A DNA stretch of 64,000 nt, taken from positions 67,071 through 131,070 of the forward strand of contig JAMJFS010000001.1 in NCBI GenBank assembly GCA_023544565.1. The letters run 5' to 3'. The stretch is from Methanosarcinaceae archaeon (GTDB lineage: Archaea > Halobacteriota > Methanosarcinia > Methanosarcinales > Methanosarcinaceae). The notes under the pieces are model-generated. The model was not told the DNA's origin. It did not search any database and worked only from the letters and a program-made list of their open reading frames with translations. Both the position numbers and the translations under genes were made by a program. Shown here one piece after another: positions 35,902 through 44,969 of the stretch (position 1 is the first letter of the stretch; each line of letters opens with the position of its first letter).

Positions 35902-36882
35902 TCATTCTATTTTCCGTTTTACCACAGAACCATCCCGCATGTGGACAGTGACGTATTTCTCTTTTTCTTCTTCGACCTCATACTTGTTATAGAGCATCGA
36001 TTCCACGCGCCCGATGTCAAGTAAACTGCGAAGCCATGTACTGTCATTTCCCTTCATCTTCGACTTTCCCGCAGGAGGACTTGTTTTGACCTTCTTTTTA
36101 GAGTATATCACACCGCCTTTCATCCCGGCACCAACATATCCTTTTGCATCCCTCAACACCAATGAGCCGCCTTTCATATATGCACCTGCAAACTCACCAA
36201 CTGTGCCAAGCATAACAACAGTCCCGCCATCAAGGTGTGCGCCTGTGTTCATCCCACTATTTCCTTTGATGATTATCGTGCCGTGTCTCATCAGCAAACC
36301 CGTGCCGTTGTAAGTATCACCTTCGACAACGATATTTGCCATACAATTGCAACGTGCTCCAAGTGTTCCGCGAAGTATCCCATCATCAAGTGTCAATTGC
36401 CGCTCATTTTCATCAAATGTATTTGATACAAGTATATCGGTGTCAAGACAGTTGCAAAAAATATCAGTGATCGAACGGAACTTCTTGTAACCCTGCACAT
36501 CAGATCTAACTTCAATAATGTTGCCCCAGGGCTCTGCCACGTCTCCACTTACATAAAGTGTCCCTGAAACCATCCCCATGCCGGCTTCTTCACCGACGTT
36601 CCCGTCAACGAACACACGCCCTGCAGGTATAAAATTACCGCTCCCTCCAAGATGTTTTATGTCAACACCAAGACTGTAAGCGAACCGCGCGCCTACGTTG
36701 CCTTTGATGTGGATATCCGAGCCGCTCTTTGAGGCATCAACAAGATCTGAATACGTAAACTGTGTGCCCGACTGATGTGGAATTACTGAAGCGGGGTCAA
36801 GTCGCTGGTTCTGCCAGTAAAAATCAAATGTGTAATCACATACATTATCGACCGGCGAGGTTAGTTCGATCTTGATACCCAT
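35902..36882 (-). CDS. GXGXG beta-helix protein (GltB-C/FwdC-like)
   Basis: 326 residues from ATG 36882 (GGGTGAT upstream). The centre has repeated G-x-G motifs of the GXGXG right-handed helix (IHIKGNVGARFAYSLGV; GNVGEEAGMGMVSGTLYVSGDV; VVEGDTYNGTGLLMRHGTIIIKGNSG; VGEFAGAYMKGGSLVLRDAKG), as in the C-terminal domain of glutamate synthase and in formylmethanofuran dehydrogenase subunit C. It has neither the GltB catalytic domains nor an Fwd operon around it. A Cys pair (CNCLDTD; RCNCM) lies between the halves. A C-terminal ~75-residue tail is unusual. Probably a structural subunit of a redox complex with the ferredoxin beside it. Confidence 0.85.
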   Translation of the reverse strand: MGIKIELTSPVDNVCDYTFDFYWQNQRLDPASVIPHQSGTQFTYSDLVDASKSGSDIHIKGNVGARFAYSLGVDIKHLGGSGNFIPAGRVFVDGNVGEEAGMGMVSGTLYVSGDVAEPWGNIIEVRSDVQGYKKFRSITDIFCNCLDTDILVSNTFDENERQLTLDDGILRGTLGARCNCMANIVVEGDTYNGTGLLMRHGTIIIKGNSGMNTGAHLDGGTVVMLGTVGEFAGAYMKGGSLVLRDAKGYVGAGMKGGVIYSKKKVKTSPPAGKSKMKGNDSTWLRSLLDIGRVESMLYNKYEVEEEKEKYVTVHMRDGSVVKRKIE

Positions 36883-36890
36883 TGAACATA

Positions 36891-37259
36891 TCACCCGTGA
36901 ATGAGGGCAGGAAGGCAGCGTGTGCAAACCCAAATGCTTTCCATTTCATGCCTCATTGGAAGGAGATACCTTGTATCTTCACCTTCGCCACAACTGAAGC
37001 ACTTGATGGAGATATCCGTGGTCTTTTTGTGCGCCTCCGCTTTCTCGGCATTGAACTCGACAGTCTGGCGTTCTTCAATTGTTATTGCGTCTTCGGGGCA
37101 TATGCCCATACAAAACCCCATGCCGTCACAAAGTTCTTCTGACATAACCTTTGCCTTGCCATCGATTATCTGGATAGCGCCCTCGGCGCAAGGGGATACG
37201 CACTTGCCACATCCTGTGCATTTGTCCTCATCTATGTGTACTATCATACGCTTAACCAT
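36891..37259 (-). CDS. 2x[4Fe-4S] ferredoxin with C-terminal Cys-rich extension
   Basis: 122 residues from ATG 37259. Cluster motifs CTGCGKCVSPCAEGAI (about 13-28) and CDGMGFCMGICPEDAI (about 44-59; first gap longer than standard). The C-terminal ~55 residues carry CFSCGEGED and VCTRCLPALIHG, like a small zinc ribbon or third metal site. It lies between the CGGC and GXGXG genes with gaps of 19 and 8 bases, so it should carry electrons for that complex. Confidence 0.9.
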   Translation of the reverse strand: MVKRMIVHIDEDKCTGCGKCVSPCAEGAIQIIDGKAKVMSEELCDGMGFCMGICPEDAITIEERQTVEFNAEKAEAHKKTTDISIKCFSCGEGEDTRYLLPMRHEMESIWVCTRCLPALIHG

Positions 37260-37278
37260 TTTACCATCTCCTTTGACA

Positions 37279-37626
37279 TTAATGATGTGTACCTTCAACA
37301 ACTTTTATTCCTGCATCCGTGATCGTCTTTCTGATCGAATCAATGTGCGGGCACTTTGGATAATCTTCCATCTTCATACATGAACTCAGGTGTACCACAT
37401 CTGCACCCATTTTCTTGATAGATTTTACAAGGCGATATACACGCCGTCCCGAACATCCGCCGCATGTGAAAAAGGCTATCATCTCTGCGTTCTCATCGTA
37501 ATCCTTGAAATACATTTTTCGTTTATTGAACGCCATGAAGCATCCAACGCCTGGACAGGCTTCAGATACTATATCGCACCTGACCACTGCGATCTTTGTG
37601 GGTTTTTCTTCTGTTATGACCTTCAC
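37279..37626 (-). CDS. CGGC-domain protein (putative metal-binding)
   Basis: 115 residues with FFTCGGCSGRRVYRLV at about 53-68, the signature of the CGGC domain, plus RCDIVSEACPGVGC near the N-terminus and HLSSCMKMEDYPKCPH near 80-95. The Cys pattern suggests binding of a metal or cluster. The family is not characterised. First gene of the minus-strand cluster down to 35237. Confidence 0.88.
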   Translation of the reverse strand: MKVITEEKPTKIAVVRCDIVSEACPGVGCFMAFNKRKMYFKDYDENAEMIAFFTCGGCSGRRVYRLVKSIKKMGADVVHLSSCMKMEDYPKCPHIDSIRKTITDAGIKVVEGTHH

Positions 37627-37833: not shown

Positions 37834-38913
37834 TCACTCCCTTTCAACAACCTTAAGCAATCCTCCATACAAAACCACAGCCAAAAGTGAGTATCCACCA
37901 AGCCATACTATAGTTTCCAGACCTCCGATACTCTGAATCGAGAGGCGGGTAACAAGGTTCATCGGAGAATTTGTAAAAAGATATGAGATCATGAACAGAA
38001 AGATCAGTATCAGTGAATAGAATAACTGTGCCATTCCGCGTTCTTTGAACATTACAGATATAATGCCACTGACAAGGACAAGTATCATTGCAACTACCAG
38101 AACAAGCAACAATATCGTAACAACATTGTGGATCACAATCCCGTTCATCATCAACAGAATCACCCACGCAAACGCCTGGACAGGTGCGATAATTGTGGCG
38201 AGTAACACTTTTCCGCTGATTACATCGAACAACGATATTGGCGATACCAGCAAAAGGTCAATTGTTTTGCGCTCGAATTCCTCTGTAATAAAATCAACCA
38301 CAAGACCGCCTGATATGAAGGCAGGAGTAAATACCAGAAGTGGAAGTAGTGCAACATACAGGAACTCAAAATAGGTTGAAGAAGTTTTTGTTTTTCGCTC
38401 AACAATATTGAGATCCAGGGGTGTATATCCCGAAACCCGTTTTGTCCTGATGTCACGCACACTCTGCTCAAACTTCTCAAGCGGTTCTTTGAGTTGTAAT
38501 GAAACAAGGGTTGCCTTCAAGTCCGATCTGGGTAGATATATATCAATGTCCAAAATCTCGTACCCGTCAGGCGGTCCTTCAGGGATTATCAAAATAGCAT
38601 CAACCTTGCGGTCATAGAATGCAGTATATGCATCAGAGAACTCGCTGTACAAGATCGGGGAAAGGTCACTATTCTGCAGCAACAGGTACAATTCACTCTC
38701 ATTGTTGCCCACAACTGCGATCTTCGTACTTCCCATATCAAGTTCACCAAGGGCTGTCGGGTCGTAGAATGATGTCAATCCGATCACAAGGAATGTGGAG
38801 AACGATGCAATGAATAACTGGATCAATACCGAAAGAATGAATGTCTTCTCATGCATGACTTCCCGATATTCCTTTTTTGCAATTAGCGCAACAATGCGGG
38901 GCGACAGCGTCAT
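37834..38913 (-). CDS. ABC-2 type permease (NatB-like)
   Basis: 359 residues from ATG 38913; a TTG at 38934 is in frame. One N-terminal helix (about 20-45), a large external domain (about 50-180: IAVVGNNESELY..., VDAILIIPEGPP) and five C-terminal helices (SGGLVVDFITEEFERKTIDLLLVSPISLFDVISGKVL marks ABC-2). NatB/CcmB-related exporter half. It starts just after the next permease gene on the same strand, so the two may form one transporter. The ATPase is probably the NatA-like gene at 43338. Confidence 0.87.
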   Translation of the reverse strand: MTLSPRIVALIAKKEYREVMHEKTFILSVLIQLFIASFSTFLVIGLTSFYDPTALGELDMGSTKIAVVGNNESELYLLLQNSDLSPILYSEFSDAYTAFYDRKVDAILIIPEGPPDGYEILDIDIYLPRSDLKATLVSLQLKEPLEKFEQSVRDIRTKRVSGYTPLDLNIVERKTKTSSTYFEFLYVALLPLLVFTPAFISGGLVVDFITEEFERKTIDLLLVSPISLFDVISGKVLLATIIAPVQAFAWVILLMMNGIVIHNVVTILLLVLVVAMILVLVSGIISVMFKERGMAQLFYSLILIFLFMISYLFTNSPMNLVTRLSIQSIGGLETIVWLGGYSLLAVVLYGGLLKVVERE

Positions 38914-38926
38914 GTTGGATCTATGG

Positions 38927-40762
38927 TCAGCCAAAAAGGATCCCCCTCAGGATAAATAGATTGTATAACCCGTGCAGGACACTTGCAAATAGAACAAAAG
39001 GCAGATACCATCTGGGATTGATCGCGTACATTCCAAGTGATACAACCATCACACCTATGATGTGTATCATAAGTGGGATGAGTAGCAGTGTACCCATGGT
39101 CATGACAGAACCGAAAACCGATGTGGCGATCGGAGCCAGTGTTATGATAACCAGTAACTTCTCGCCTGCAAAAAAACCTGCACCTGCAAGTATGGCAAGA
39201 GTGGCAGCATTTTTCAGAGTGAGTACGACCATTTTTCTTTTGAAAAGGGTGTATATTCCGATCGATTTTACAAGTTCTTCGATCAGTGCAGCAAGAACTA
39301 TCATCACAATGACCGAGTAGGGTAAAGGCAAGTTAAAGAGCATAACTATCAGCATCAACTGAGCCATGTACACGAAAGGAATGAAGATAATACTCAGCAG
39401 GAACACCGAGCCATAAGGGTTTGACAGGAATATCTCGACACAGTCCAGAAGTTTTTGAGTTATCGGTTTTTGGGTAAACAGGTCTTCTTCCCTGAAGATA
39501 TAGGTGCCAAAAACAAAGACTGAAAGTCCTACAAAGTAAAAAGGTAGTGTTGAGAATATATATTCACCCATGTTGATTGTGTCGCCTTCAATGAGCAGTA
39601 CGATAAGTGTCATCGGGGAGATGGTGCTTATGGCATGTACGTTTGCGAACATGGCAGGGAAGAACAAATATCCTGATACCACAACTGACAAAAAGACCAT
39701 CGCAAAAGTGAGTTCCTTGAAACTCCGTGACAGGATTGCGGAGATAAATGAAAATGCGAAGAACAGTAACACGATCGGGAACATGGTCGCAAGTATCAAC
39801 AAACTGCTTTTGATCGTTACGATGTCAGTTGGCAGTCCCTTGATATAGGCGATGACAATGGCTATGATCGCCATCGTGACCAGGAGATAGGGTACAGTTT
39901 TGCCGATCACGATATCCGCACCGCGAAGTGGTGCGACAAGTACGAGTTCACACTTTTTGTTGGTACGTTCATCCATGATACTGGATGAGTAGAATTGGGA
40001 TACGAAATATATCGGGAAAATGAACAAGAATGAGTACAGTATCGCTGTGAACGGGATCGGAGGTGCAAAATGGGAAGGTGTTGCAATCGTCTGTTTTTCG
40101 AACAGGTTACGTGTCTGTATGGTCTGTAATTCTTGCGCTGTCTGTGGTCTTTTCTGTGTGGCTCCGGCTCCAATTTCTCCTGCTATTCTACCTCCGGGTG
40201 CAGCGGCTTCTATCTCTTCAGGGCTTAACTGGGTGGTTGCGCCATCTTCTTCAGATGCCCTCCGGCGCTCACCGCTAAGTACCTGAAAAGCCTCAGGGCG
40301 TTCGAGGTAATGTATTGTCACCCATACGGGATGGGTGTTGTTGATGTCGTTGTAGGAAGTGAGAACTCCTTCACGATAGTTTTTTAACGTACTTTTCAAT
40401 GCTTCAGAAGCGGACGCTGATTTTTGCGTATCCGCCATGAATACATTCGGGTCGATTATCACAAGGTCGGCATCGGTTGCATACATGTTACTTGCCGTAT
40501 TCACGTCAACGGTCATGACATTGAACCTCTGGTCAATACCAAGTACCGGTTCAAGAGCAGGATTGGTCAGTGTCACACGATACATGTCGTTATTCATGTT
40601 CATGCCGGTCTGTGCCGCCATATATGATGCGCCAATCAACAATAGCAAAGATAAGGCTAACAGTATCAAGGAACGTGCATCGAATTTCAATTTTGAACGG
40701 AAAAATTCCCACTTTGCGATCGTAACCCAGCCAGCCATCATACTTATTATGATGTCAATCAT
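38927..40762 (-). CDS. ABC-2 permease fused to PrsW-like intramembrane protease domain
   Basis: 611 residues. Residues 1-430 repeat the plan of the neighbour: one helix, a large external domain with a Pro/Glu/Ala-rich insert, then five helices around MDERTNKKCELVLVAPLRGADIVIGK. From about 440 a second membrane domain begins with the conserved residues of PrsW-type proteases: EE at 495-496 (ALIEELVKSIG), Glu 534 in GFFAGE, His 567 and His 597 (SVLHGLYN). PrsW enzymes cut membrane-bound regulators. The fusion ties export and proteolysis in one chain. The stop lies just before the next gene, so both are one operon. Confidence 0.83.
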   Translation of the reverse strand: MIDIIISMMAGWVTIAKWEFFRSKLKFDARSLILLALSLLLLIGASYMAAQTGMNMNNDMYRVTLTNPALEPVLGIDQRFNVMTVDVNTASNMYATDADLVIIDPNVFMADTQKSASASEALKSTLKNYREGVLTSYNDINNTHPVWVTIHYLERPEAFQVLSGERRRASEEDGATTQLSPEEIEAAAPGGRIAGEIGAGATQKRPQTAQELQTIQTRNLFEKQTIATPSHFAPPIPFTAILYSFLFIFPIYFVSQFYSSSIMDERTNKKCELVLVAPLRGADIVIGKTVPYLLVTMAIIAIVIAYIKGLPTDIVTIKSSLLILATMFPIVLLFFAFSFISAILSRSFKELTFAMVFLSVVVSGYLFFPAMFANVHAISTISPMTLIVLLIEGDTINMGEYIFSTLPFYFVGLSVFVFGTYIFREEDLFTQKPITQKLLDCVEIFLSNPYGSVFLLSIIFIPFVYMAQLMLIVMLFNLPLPYSVIVMIVLAALIEELVKSIGIYTLFKRKMVVLTLKNAATLAILAGAGFFAGEKLLVIITLAPIATSVFGSVMTMGTLLLIPLMIHIIGVMVVSLGMYAINPRWYLPFVLFASVLHGLYNLFILRGILFG

Positions 40763-40817: not shown

Positions 40818-41633
40818 GTGGTTGATCTGAGTATATTATCGCAGACCATTCCGTATACGAGTGTGGCTGTGTCTCAAGTTTTGTTTGCACTCATTGTACT
40901 GGTTGCAGGATTTATATTAGTGAAAATTGTTGTTTCCATGTTCAATAATGGACTGAAAAAAACAAAACTTCCGGAACTTATTATTGAATTTTTATCAAGG
41001 TTCCTGACCGCTCTATTGTATGTTATAGTAATTCTTGCATTCATAGGAGCGCTTGGATTTGCTGTTGGTTCGATGATGATCAGCCTCTCAGCAGTTCTGG
41101 GATTGATCTTAGGTTTCGGGATGCAGGATTCTCTTTCAAATATATCTGCAGGGGTTTGGATTGCCAGCCTTCGACCGATTGACAAAGATGAATACGTGGA
41201 AGTCAATGGTTCAAGTGGTACTGTTAGTGCTGTCGGTATTCTGGCAACCGAACTGCTGACTCCTGATAATAAGTTCGTCACCATTCCGAATAAACTGGTA
41301 TGGGGAAGTCCTATTGTCAATTATACTAGAATGCCCACAAGAAGGGTTGATGTCAATGTTGGTGTAGGTTATAATTCTGATCTGAACAAGGCAATCCAGG
41401 TGGCAATGGACCTTATGAAGGGCCATACAATGGTATTAAGCGATCCCGAACCCCTTGTTGTGACCACAGAACTTGCAGATTCGTCAGTGAACTTCCAGCT
41501 CAGGTCATGGGTAAATACTGAAGATCTCTGGGTCACTAAACGCGAGCTTACGAAAGGAATTTTCGAGGCTTTCAAGAGGGAAGGCGTGGAAATCCCATAT
41601 CCGCAGGTGGATGTTCATATGAAGAAAGAGTGA
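40818..41633 (+). CDS. mscS: Small-conductance mechanosensitive channel (MscS family)
   Basis: 271 residues. Three N-terminal helices, the third (pore) containing LSAVLGLILGFGMQDSLSNISAG, then the beta domain (DEYVEVNGSSGTVSAVGI, VTIPNKLVWGSPIVNYT) and a C-terminal alpha/beta domain. It opens under membrane tension to release solutes in hypo-osmotic shock. A GTG start is fixed by AGGAGG 8-13 bases upstream. The gene diverges from the permease pair and stands alone. Confidence 0.94.
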   Translation: MVDLSILSQTIPYTSVAVSQVLFALIVLVAGFILVKIVVSMFNNGLKKTKLPELIIEFLSRFLTALLYVIVILAFIGALGFAVGSMMISLSAVLGLILGFGMQDSLSNISAGVWIASLRPIDKDEYVEVNGSSGTVSAVGILATELLTPDNKFVTIPNKLVWGSPIVNYTRMPTRRVDVNVGVGYNSDLNKAIQVAMDLMKGHTMVLSDPEPLVVTTELADSSVNFQLRSWVNTEDLWVTKRELTKGIFEAFKREGVEIPYPQVDVHMKKE

Positions 41634-41851: not shown

Positions 41852-42802
41852 TTATTCGTCTTCCCGTTTACGCATCAGATACGCGAGACACATTATGCCT
41901 CCTACTGCTGTTAATACACTAAAGCCCGGCAATTCTTCCTTCTTTTCATTTTCACTTTCTTGTGCTCCAACTTCTTCGAATGATGCTTCCTCGCCTACCT
42001 TAATAGATCCATATTCTCCTGCCCCACTTACAGGCTGTTGTACACCATCTATTACACTCTTTGTGCTTATTGCAAATGTAGAGAATCCAGGTGTGAGTGC
42101 TGTGTAGTACATACCATTTGCATTCATATTGATCTTATCAGGCATCCAATCATTCTCATTAGTTTGTGTTGTTGGTAGTTGATTCCATTTGTCGTTGCTC
42201 CACCTGTAGAGCGCTACCTCAGATGGATTGATACCATTGTCACTGAACCACTCATCAGGCACCACGAATTGCAATTTGACATCTTTCAGCTCTTTTGATG
42301 TGCGAAGATCGCATATGATATTCATGTAGATAAAAACTTTACCAGGTGGATCCACTGACACTGAGGCAGACCTTTGCTTTAATGCCTGTACCCTGAATTC
42401 AACATGGCGTGCAGGCTGGATCAGAGGTATGAATGAAACACCCGTAATAGGCGTGCTTGTATTCTCAAAGGTGACATTTAGTGCAATACCCTGTTTCACA
42501 TTCTGGATGTACTTATACTGGCTGGCCACGACATTAAATGCATCGGCACTTCTACGACCACTGCTGCCGCTCGACGAGAGTTTAGGTGCTGCAGGACCCG
42601 TGTATGAACGACTGGTAGTATTACTATTGCTGGCGTTATTAATCGCTGCCTGTATAGGCGTTATGCTTGAATTTAATACGCCTCCGTCGTCCCACCAGTG
42701 GGTTTGGTTGACATAAATGTCTGCTGCAAAAGCAGGTATAGCAAGCATACTTAGAATTAATATAGACAAAATAAATATTCTGGGAAAATGTATCTAATTC
42801 AT
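41852..42802 (-). CDS. PGF-pre-PGF surface protein, amber codon 3, lacking beta-helix repeats
   Basis: The best start is ATG 42802, with GGAG 8 bases upstream, but its third codon is TAG (42794-42796): Met, Asn, stop, Ile, His, Phe and on into an open signal peptide ending IPAFAAD. A start at TTG 42769 avoids the TAG but has no ribosome site and a shorter signal. The mature N-terminus (IYVNQTHWWDDGGVLNSS, then PIQAAINNASN) is the usual lead-in to NosD-type beta-helix repeats, yet the repeats are missing and a PGF-pre-PGF domain follows (about 80-240). The end ELPGFSVLTAVGGI plus MRKRED is a PGF-type C-terminal sorting signal. Exported, surface-bound; function unknown. Confidence 0.75.
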
Positions 42803-43337: not shown

Positions 43338-44255
43338 ATGATCGAAGTAGTGGGATTACGAAAAGAGTACGGGGAATTCACGGCTGTTGATGGTCTGAAT
43401 TTTTCTGTCAACAAGGGAGAGATATTCGGTATTGTCGGCCCGAATGGTGCCGGAAAGACCACTACTCTTAAGATGGTAAGTGGCCTCATACGGCCCAGTG
43501 CAGGAACTATTATGATCAATGGACTTGACCTTGAAGAAGAACCTGTTAAGATAAAATTATTTCTTGGATTCCTGCCCGAAGAATCTCCTCTTTATGAGAG
43601 CATGATGGTTGATGATTACCTTATGTTCTTTGCAGAACTTTATAGTGTTGACAAAAAAACAGCAAGAAGGCGGATAAATGGTCTTTTGTTCGATCTTTCC
43701 CTAAATTTCGAAGGGAAAAAGATAGGCGACCTGTCCAAGGGTATGCGCCGCAAGGTTGCGATCGCACGATCGCTTATCAATAATCCTGATGTGCTGATAT
43801 ATGACGAACCGGCATCAGGACTTGATCCGATGACCTCGAAATATATCACGGATTACATCGCCTCGCTAAAGGAGACGGGTAAGACCATCCTGTTCAGTGC
43901 TCACAATCTTTATCAGGTGGAGTCGATGTGTGACCGTATCCTGATAATGAATGACGGGAAAATAATAACGCTTGGAACAATGGCTGAGATACAAAAGGAG
44001 TTCGGGCACACGTCATATCGTGTTGAGTTTATGGTTGATGATGTGAGTGATTTTACTGCTGCTGATATTGAGAAAGCGGATGGACATTATGTTATCACGA
44101 CTGATGACATTAATGCTGTGAATGCTACTACAAAATGGGTGGCATCCAAAGGAGGGGACATTATAGAGATGCGGACAATTGAGCCTACGCTGGAGGACAT
44201 CTTTTTGGAATTGATGGGGTTTGAGTCTGGTAAAAGGGTGTATTCTGGGGAATGA
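43338..44255 (+). CDS. ABC transporter ATPase (NatA-like)
   Basis: 305 residues. Walker A GPNGAGKTTTLKM (about 36-47), signature LSKGMRRKVAIARSL (LSKGM form), Walker B VLIYDEPASGLDP, H-loop SAHNLYQVE. The C-terminal ~85 residues are the extra domain common in ATPases that serve ABC-2 exporters. The likely partners are the two ABC-2 permeases at 37834-40762, split from it by mscS and the PGF gene. The permease at 31823 is a second possibility. Confidence 0.93.
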   Translation: MIEVVGLRKEYGEFTAVDGLNFSVNKGEIFGIVGPNGAGKTTTLKMVSGLIRPSAGTIMINGLDLEEEPVKIKLFLGFLPEESPLYESMMVDDYLMFFAELYSVDKKTARRRINGLLFDLSLNFEGKKIGDLSKGMRRKVAIARSLINNPDVLIYDEPASGLDPMTSKYITDYIASLKETGKTILFSAHNLYQVESMCDRILIMNDGKIITLGTMAEIQKEFGHTSYRVEFMVDDVSDFTAADIEKADGHYVITTDDINAVNATTKWVASKGGDIIEMRTIEPTLEDIFLELMGFESGKRVYSGE

Positions 44256-44273: not shown

Positions 44274-44684
44274 TCATGCCACATTTCGATTAATTATGCC
44301 ATCAAAATGAGAATCAAAACTAAATATTGTGTCAATTTCATACGTTTTTACAAAAGCGATAGATGAACAATCTGTAAAACTTAAACCTTTGCTGCAGTAC
44401 TCGTTGAATATGTCCCAGGATTGATTGAAAACTTCATCGTCTACTTTCAGCATAATTACCCGAGGGGAATCGATGATTGCTTTTCCGATCATTAGCGGAA
44501 TTTCGGCATTGTGCGTTCTTACACGCGCAAGTGTTACTGTTTCATCAAACATATAATCTGAAGTATAAATGGTTCCACCTTTGCCACTTAATGCAAACTC
44601 CAGCAAACGCACTGCTTCATCATGATGAACATCATTTTTTGAATACATGGCAAAGAAGATGCATGAATCCACAAATATTGACAA
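44274..44684 (-). CDS. vapC: PIN-domain toxin (VapC-like)
   Basis: 136 residues. PIN acidic residues: Asp in FVDSCIFFAMY, Asp/Glu in SDYMFDETVTLA, Asp in LSFTDCSSIAF and Asp in FSFDSHFDGI. The start is a TTG directly after the antitoxin stop, with GGTGA upstream. RNase toxin neutralised by the product of 44685-44969. It ends 18 bases from the natA stop, tail to tail. Confidence 0.9.
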   Translation of the reverse strand: MSIFVDSCIFFAMYSKNDVHHDEAVRLLEFALSGKGGTIYTSDYMFDETVTLARVRTHNAEIPLMIGKAIIDSPRVIMLKVDDEVFNQSWDIFNEYCSKGLSFTDCSSIAFVKTYEIDTIFSFDSHFDGIINRNVA

Positions 44685-44969
44685 TTATTCACCGCCGTAA
44701 AGGTATTCATCTATTCTTGTCGCGTCTGTTTTACCCATATCAACAGGTTTGTGCATCAATTGCCACAAAGTATCATCTTCAATTGGCGTTTTTGGTTGCG
44801 ATTGTGATAAATGTGCAATAAAGTCATCTTCATGAGTAATGGCATATTCGATAGCATCGTCAATTAATTGCTGCTGTGACAATTTCAGATCTCTGAGCCT
44901 TAATCTGGATTGCATTTTTTCAATTCTATCTTTTGTTCTTCGAGGTATGCGTGTTGGGATACTTGACAT
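44685..44969 (-). CDS. Putative antitoxin for the PIN toxin
   Basis: 94 residues, basic N-terminus (TRIPRRTKDRIEKMQSRLRLRDLKLSQQQLIDDAIEYA), probably a ribbon-helix-helix-like DNA-binding fold, and an acidic C-terminus that would wrap the toxin. Stop and toxin start codons abut. Two related palindromes just upstream (44982-45013) fit autorepression. I infer the pairing from position. Confidence 0.8.
   Translation of the reverse strand: MSSIPTRIPRRTKDRIEKMQSRLRLRDLKLSQQQLIDDAIEYAITHEDDFIAHLSQSQPKTPIEDDTLWQLMHKPVDMGKTDATRIDEYLYGGE

Follow-up and report, generated by a model that had tools for sequence, protein, structure and literature searches.

The locus and its gene module

The window analysed here (the whole stretch of DNA, 64,000 nucleotides) carries a minus-strand open reading frame that runs uninterrupted across 611 aa and joins an ABC-2 permease to a predicted protease domain of the PrsW type. 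The fusion gene and the features around it are as follows.

38927..40762, minus strand: permease-PrsW fusion protein, 611 aa (open reading frame, and homologues in 204/394 genomes)
39456..40762, minus strand: ABC-2 permease half, residues 1-436 (PF12698, AlphaFold2 model and loop charges)
38930..39457, minus strand: predicted PrsW-type protease domain, residues 436-611 (invariant residues, PF13367 in relatives, hhalign and domain model)
37834..38934, minus strand: partner ABC-2 permease, 366 aa (PF12698, E=7.5e-20; 8-bp overlap with the fusion gene)
43338..44255, plus strand: DrrA-like ABC ATPase of the module (Pfam/NCBIfam profiles; adjacency in 112/120 loci)
40818..41633, plus strand: MscS channel gene between the fusion gene and the ATPase (in 18 loci; outside the conserved core)
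41852..42769, minus strand: PGF-pre-PGF domain surface protein, a second insertion (TIGR04213, E=1.1e-30; not conserved)

The fusion protein probably starts at Met8 or Met9 (MMAGW...), because M-x-GW-x-IAKWE is the N-terminus in most of its relatives. Its closest named homologue, at 90% protein identity, comes from Methanosarcinaceae archaeon HMMV2, an isolate name from which the genome of the window can probably be placed in ANME-3. Residues 32-416 match ABC2_membrane_3 in the Pfam database (PF12698; E=1.5e-10, 41.1 bits against a cut-off of 31.6), and the partner permease scores 71.7 bits against the same cut-off. Both permeases have ABC2_membrane_3/_2 matches and nothing else in Pfam.

The original prediction had placed a NatB-like partner next door and assigned the ATPase 2.6 kb away to the same system, and both assignments are borne out by 120 homologous loci (40 genomes plus 80 contigs, with species partly overlapping). 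In 119 of these loci, the partner permease lies downstream of the fusion gene and is read in the same direction, and a DrrA-like ATPase adjoins in 112; in four of the eight loci lacking it, the available upstream sequence is shorter than 1.2 kb. In haloarchaea, the ATPase, the permease-PrsW fusion and the permease form one co-directional operon with overlaps of 4-8 bp; methanogens and ANME have the ATPase in divergent orientation, mostly within about 1.3 kb of the fusion gene. The deep-branching families f8 and f9 have the identical trio, and within Methanosarcinaceae the two permeases are either both there or both missing, fragmentary contigs apart. The ATPase, the permease-PrsW fusion and the partner permease are one conserved exporter module. 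Two loci (L038 and L050) keep both permeases without an ATPase within about 7 kb upstream, and their ATPase may be encoded elsewhere or have been replaced.

The ATPase of the window is likewise divergent from the fusion gene, and the 2.6-kb gap is explained by the inserted MscS and PGF-pre-PGF genes. The MscS insertion recurs in Methanosarcinaceae, and a 92%-identical relative (L094) has MscS alone between the fusion gene and the ATPase; the PGF-pre-PGF insertion is seen at the window locus alone among the loci scanned. A link to archaeosortase through this PGF-pre-PGF neighbour was considered and rejected, since the gene is not a conserved neighbour and archaeosortase A is found in 96 of 101 genomes of the family regardless of the module. 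Flank clustering of the 120 loci yielded the module genes and lineage-specific synteny, with no conserved substrate gene next door. As for the immediate surroundings in the window, GXGXG glutamate-synthase-like, ferredoxin and CGGC-domain genes lie on the minus strand at 35902-37626, and the ABC ATPase is directly followed at 44274-44969 by a PIN-domain protein gene and a small ORF upstream of it, a probable toxin-antitoxin pair. A C-terminal fragment of the partner permease, about 52 residues long, is also repeated in relatives of the same genus (74-91% identical, then a stop; G401:C17:40801-40959, G408:C20:4647-4802, G395:C63:1775-1930 and G411:C88:9857-10015); it is separate from the intact end and in G401 lies some 1.5 kb downstream of it.

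The protease domain and its assignment to PrsW

The motif set of the protease domain comprises E495 E496 xx K499, F530xxxE534 K535, H567 and H597xxxN601, with the EExxK motif in a predicted helix at 482-508 (AlphaFold2). The original prediction had named residues 495, 496, 534, 567 and 597 as E, E, E, H and H, and this is what stands at those positions. A search for loss of these acidic and histidine residues found none: E495, E496, K499, E534, K535, H567 and H597 are all identical in 140 of 140 distinct homologues. The protease domain has no further invariant column, and the whole fusion protein has 16, in a set whose identity otherwise drops to about 22%. Between lineages, the protease domain differs by about 63% on average, and as judged from the alignment, the invariance of the motif residues is far beyond chance at such divergence. 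H567 belongs to the third core helix and H597 to the fourth, where position 601 is less strict, with N in 133 homologues and D in six.

The C-terminal 175 residues of the window's protein, taken alone, have no Pfam or NCBIfam match, and none to PF13367 (PrsW) at E<=1, and the PrsW assignment therefore leans on the motifs and on the relatives. Twenty-one of 61 relatives match PF13367 at E<=0.1 (best 3.4e-9), and listed above its gathering score are 25 haloarchaeal fused frames, two of which reach it only when adjoining stretches are counted in. Wherever checked, these frames coincide with the coordinates of the fusion gene. The expected profile match to PrsW thus appears in the relatives and not in the window's own domain. 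In a profile-profile comparison by hhalign with an alignment of 14 standalone haloarchaeal PrsW proteins, the fused domain matched with 93% probability (E=2.9e-7), and E495, E496, E534, H567 and H597 were all paired with their canonical equivalents, E534 with the FATIEN segment of standalone PrsW. Published descriptions of PrsW place EExxK in TM3, one more conserved His in TM5 and HxxxD in TM6 (PMC4602095), and the motifs of the fusion domain agree with this pattern in order and spacing. Together with the PF12698 match, these motifs and the hhalign result uphold the proposal that an ABC-2 permease and a PrsW-like protease are held in one chain, and on sequence criteria the C-terminal domain is a predicted PrsW-type intramembrane protease with its putative active site preserved.

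The fused domain shares EExxK, FxxxE, the His in the next helix and HxxYN with the PrsW family in identical order. However, the second Glu is followed by Asn (E-N) in canonical haloarchaeal PrsW and by an invariant Lys (E-K) in the fused family, and the chemistry of the fused domain may differ because K535 stands where the canonical proteins have Asn. Standalone PrsW (PF13367, MEROPS M82; for example B. subtilis PrsW and the PrsW-like HVO_0408) is not C-terminally fused to an ABC-2 permease. At least one canonical PrsW-type protein, mostly in frames of about 350 aa, is present in 60 of 60 haloarchaeal genomes besides any fused one. Identity as a CPBP/Rce1 protease (PF02517) was considered and rejected: CPBP/Rce1 carries EExxxR, which is absent here, whereas the PrsW hallmark EExxK is present with an invariant K499, and PF02517 is matched by just two of 61 homologues (best E=0.00097).

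Distribution and evolution

Of 394 genomes sampled from the phylum, 204 have a homologue of the fusion, in nearly all cases one full-length copy, and their range extends from ANME-3 to haloarchaea. A search of 295 genomes with the domain profile (threshold E<=1e-12) gave 147 matches, 145 of which fall in open frames 520 aa or longer. The fused form is the rule, and no intact split form exists among these 147 matches. Two candidates for a split form were rejected: the short match in G030 (L061) is a frameshifted gene, and that in G259:C39 (L088) is a decayed duplicate which lacks the last His and whose partner gene is frameshifted. This second, decayed copy of the module (L088/L209) lies beside a gene for a Hef/XPF-like helicase-nuclease; the f8 genome concerned has an intact copy as well. 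The standalone canonical PrsW proteins of the searched genomes miss the E<=1e-12 threshold, which indicates that the fused domain is a lineage of its own.

Distances of the N-domain, the C-domain, the partner permease and the ATPase correlate (Pearson 0.87-0.96), and the tree of the fusion family broadly tracks taxonomy. Because of these two observations, the sequences are consistent with old, mainly vertical inheritance accompanied by losses of the whole module. In five genera of Methanosarcinaceae (g3, g4, g5, g7 and g8), the whole module is missing while archaeosortase is kept, a lineage-specific loss.

Predicted structure and topology

AlphaFold2 models the whole chain with a pLDDT of 84 and a pTM of 0.80 (61-member alignment), and the protease domain with a pLDDT of 91.8. 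The predicted order is six permease TM helices followed by five in the protease part, four of them core helices, with an extracytoplasmic domain after the first permease helix (residues about 55-235). Lys and Arg make up 15-38% of the predicted cytoplasmic loops and 1-10% of the external ones, in alternation, and these loop charges fit a model with the N-terminus inside. The helix positions of the model would place the EE, E, H and H residues near mid-membrane.

In Foldseek searches, the best PDB match of the whole chain is a weak one to a mycobacterial ABC efflux pump (E=0.03, probability 0.99). This match to the permease part and the DrrA/GldA-like ATPase speak for a plain NatAB-like exporter of ions or drugs that acquired a protease domain without functional coupling. 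Nevertheless, the fusion is kept phylum-wide with its active site intact and has no intact split form, and we regard such an uncoupled attachment as very improbable.

A profile of the protease domain has no matches among PDB sequences. APH-1 is a non-catalytic subunit of gamma-secretase, and it is also the best PDB match of the domain in Foldseek, though not a significant one (E=1.2). APH-1 has been named as a relative within the PrsW superfamily (PMC4602095). This top fold match, for all its lack of significance, lends something to the idea that the PrsW fold serves as a non-proteolytic adaptor, extending the permease in a structural or a lipid/peptide-binding role. Yet a scaffold would not require unchanged E, E, K, E, K, H and H in 140 homologues, and the sole copy found without the last His is the degraded duplicate with the frameshifted partner gene; a purely non-proteolytic role is thus very unlikely.

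Comparison with known systems

We found no report of an archaeal permease-PrsW fusion in the open-access literature searched. PrsW proteases and ABC-2 exporters are themselves known; the fusion of the two is real, widespread and apparently undescribed, and no NCBIfam model is dedicated to it. By its name, the NCBI model NF041647 embodies a like idea, an ABC permease plus a CPBP protease in a single chain of about 630 aa. Its N-terminal half resembles the partner permease (E=1.1e-10), although with 41 bits against a cut-off of 435 bits. In contrast, the fusion protein has no match to this model at E<=1, only one of 61 homologues matches at E<=0.1 (E=0.042), and no protein in the window's genome scores above the cut-off. 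The protease of NF041647 is CPBP with EExxxR, whereas that of the archaeal fusion is PrsW-type with EExxK; the comparison with NF041647 is one of profile scores. Another fusion that involves this domain is found in toxins with an N-terminal PrsW domain, which were proposed to combine extrusion and processing (PMC3482391). There, the fused part is the substrate, whereas in the archaeal fusion it is the exporter.

The genes of streptolysin S offer a parallel, as SagE/SagGHI likewise consists of an ATPase, two permeases and a CAAX-superfamily protease, and SagE is a suspected leader protease acting before export by SagGHI (PMC4513790). The parts list of the archaeal module is the same, its single protease being of the CAAX/PrsW superfamily, and the partner permease matches SagH below the threshold (E=1.1e-4, 21.2 bits, cut-off 450). 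By analogy, the PrsW domain might remove the leader of one exported ribosomal peptide. However, the Sag proteins are encoded by separate genes in a cluster that includes peptide-modifying enzymes and the precursor. Beside the archaeal module, whose neighbours vary between lineages, there is neither a conserved precursor gene nor a conserved modifying enzyme, and genes of a modified-peptide cluster of this type are absent from its recurrent neighbours. Moreover, the broadly vertical, single-copy distribution resembles housekeeping rather than a bacteriocin. A dedicated leader peptidase for a single peptide is therefore unlikely.

A second parallel comes from EcsAB/PptAB with RasP/Eep, in which an intramembrane protease shares one pathway with an ABC transporter that exports peptides. 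In S. aureus, the processing of lipoprotein leaders into linear peptides and the release of these peptides depend on both Eep and EcsAB (PMC7157817). In B. subtilis, RasP is inhibited when EcsAB is lost, and Ecs was proposed to clear peptides from the membrane (PMC2996298, PMC7478892). These proteins are encoded by separate genes, their protease is of the S2P type and their permease belongs to a different family from those of the archaeal module. Neither module permease classes as EcsB-type, and the likeness to EcsAB is one of function alone. The cited papers do not explain why intramembrane proteolysis in Bacillus and Staphylococcus needs an ABC transporter (EcsAB with RasP/Eep), and in the archaeal fusion both activities are apparently welded in one chain and kept over very long evolutionary time.

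A possible cut-and-expel mechanism

The precedents of Eep/EcsAB, RasP/EcsAB and SagE/SagGHI lead to the proposal that the PrsW domain cuts hydrophobic membrane peptides and that the attached heteromeric exporter extrudes the pieces, which we consider somewhat more probable than all other readings together. The exporter would be a heteromeric ABC-2 assembly of an ATPase dimer, the plain permease and the permease-PrsW fusion, with the protease domain (EExxK, FxxxE, H and HxxYN on four core helices) lying beside the transport path. The PrsW domain would cleave membrane-embedded peptides such as signal-peptide remnants, transmembrane stubs and small leader peptides, and the exporter would then extrude the fragments at the expense of ATP. 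Extrusion might clear the membrane and the active site, or else free a peptide product. We infer three elements of this scheme, namely an active protease, peptide substrates and ATP-driven export coupled to cutting, and likewise the outward direction of transport. Coupling of proteolysis to export was the central suggestion of the original prediction; the architecture and bacterial precedent (PMC7157817, PMC2996298) speak for it, and the coupling itself is presumed.

In a stronger form of the proposal, the ATP-driven motion of the exporter would deliver or gate peptides at the fused PrsW active site and also expel the products, so that the whole works as a single machine. We put this forward tentatively, as a possibility on the unlikely side. 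If true, it would be an archaeal, physically fused counterpart of the unexplained dependence of RasP on EcsAB in bacteria.

One may argue that the module is instead a sensor, in which the ABC part perceives a compound or envelope stress and ATP turnover gates cleavage of a membrane-bound regulator by PrsW, with export being secondary. B. subtilis PrsW does cleave an anti-sigma factor (PMC4602095, PMC9263693), RasP-dependent signalling is under EcsAB control (PMC7478892), and both module permeases have extracytoplasmic domains of the ABC2_membrane_3 type. Nevertheless, the neighbours of the module include no regulator or transcription factor that is conserved from lineage to lineage, and a dedicated conserved exporter with two permeases exceeds the needs of a sensor. 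This reading seems doubtful, although it is the least improbable of the rival readings.

The cut-and-expel proposal bears on the turnover of peptides in archaeal membranes, about which almost nothing is known (PMC9263693). Because both activities reside in one chain and the fusion occurs in many haloarchaeal genomes, an archaeon amenable to genetics would allow a direct test of the coupling. The proposal would also give a probable protease function to a protein that roughly one in two sampled genomes of the phylum encodes and that is labelled just a permease subunit. A search of plasmids returned one haloarchaeal copy of the fusion, which is annotated by PGAP merely as "ABC transporter permease subunit".
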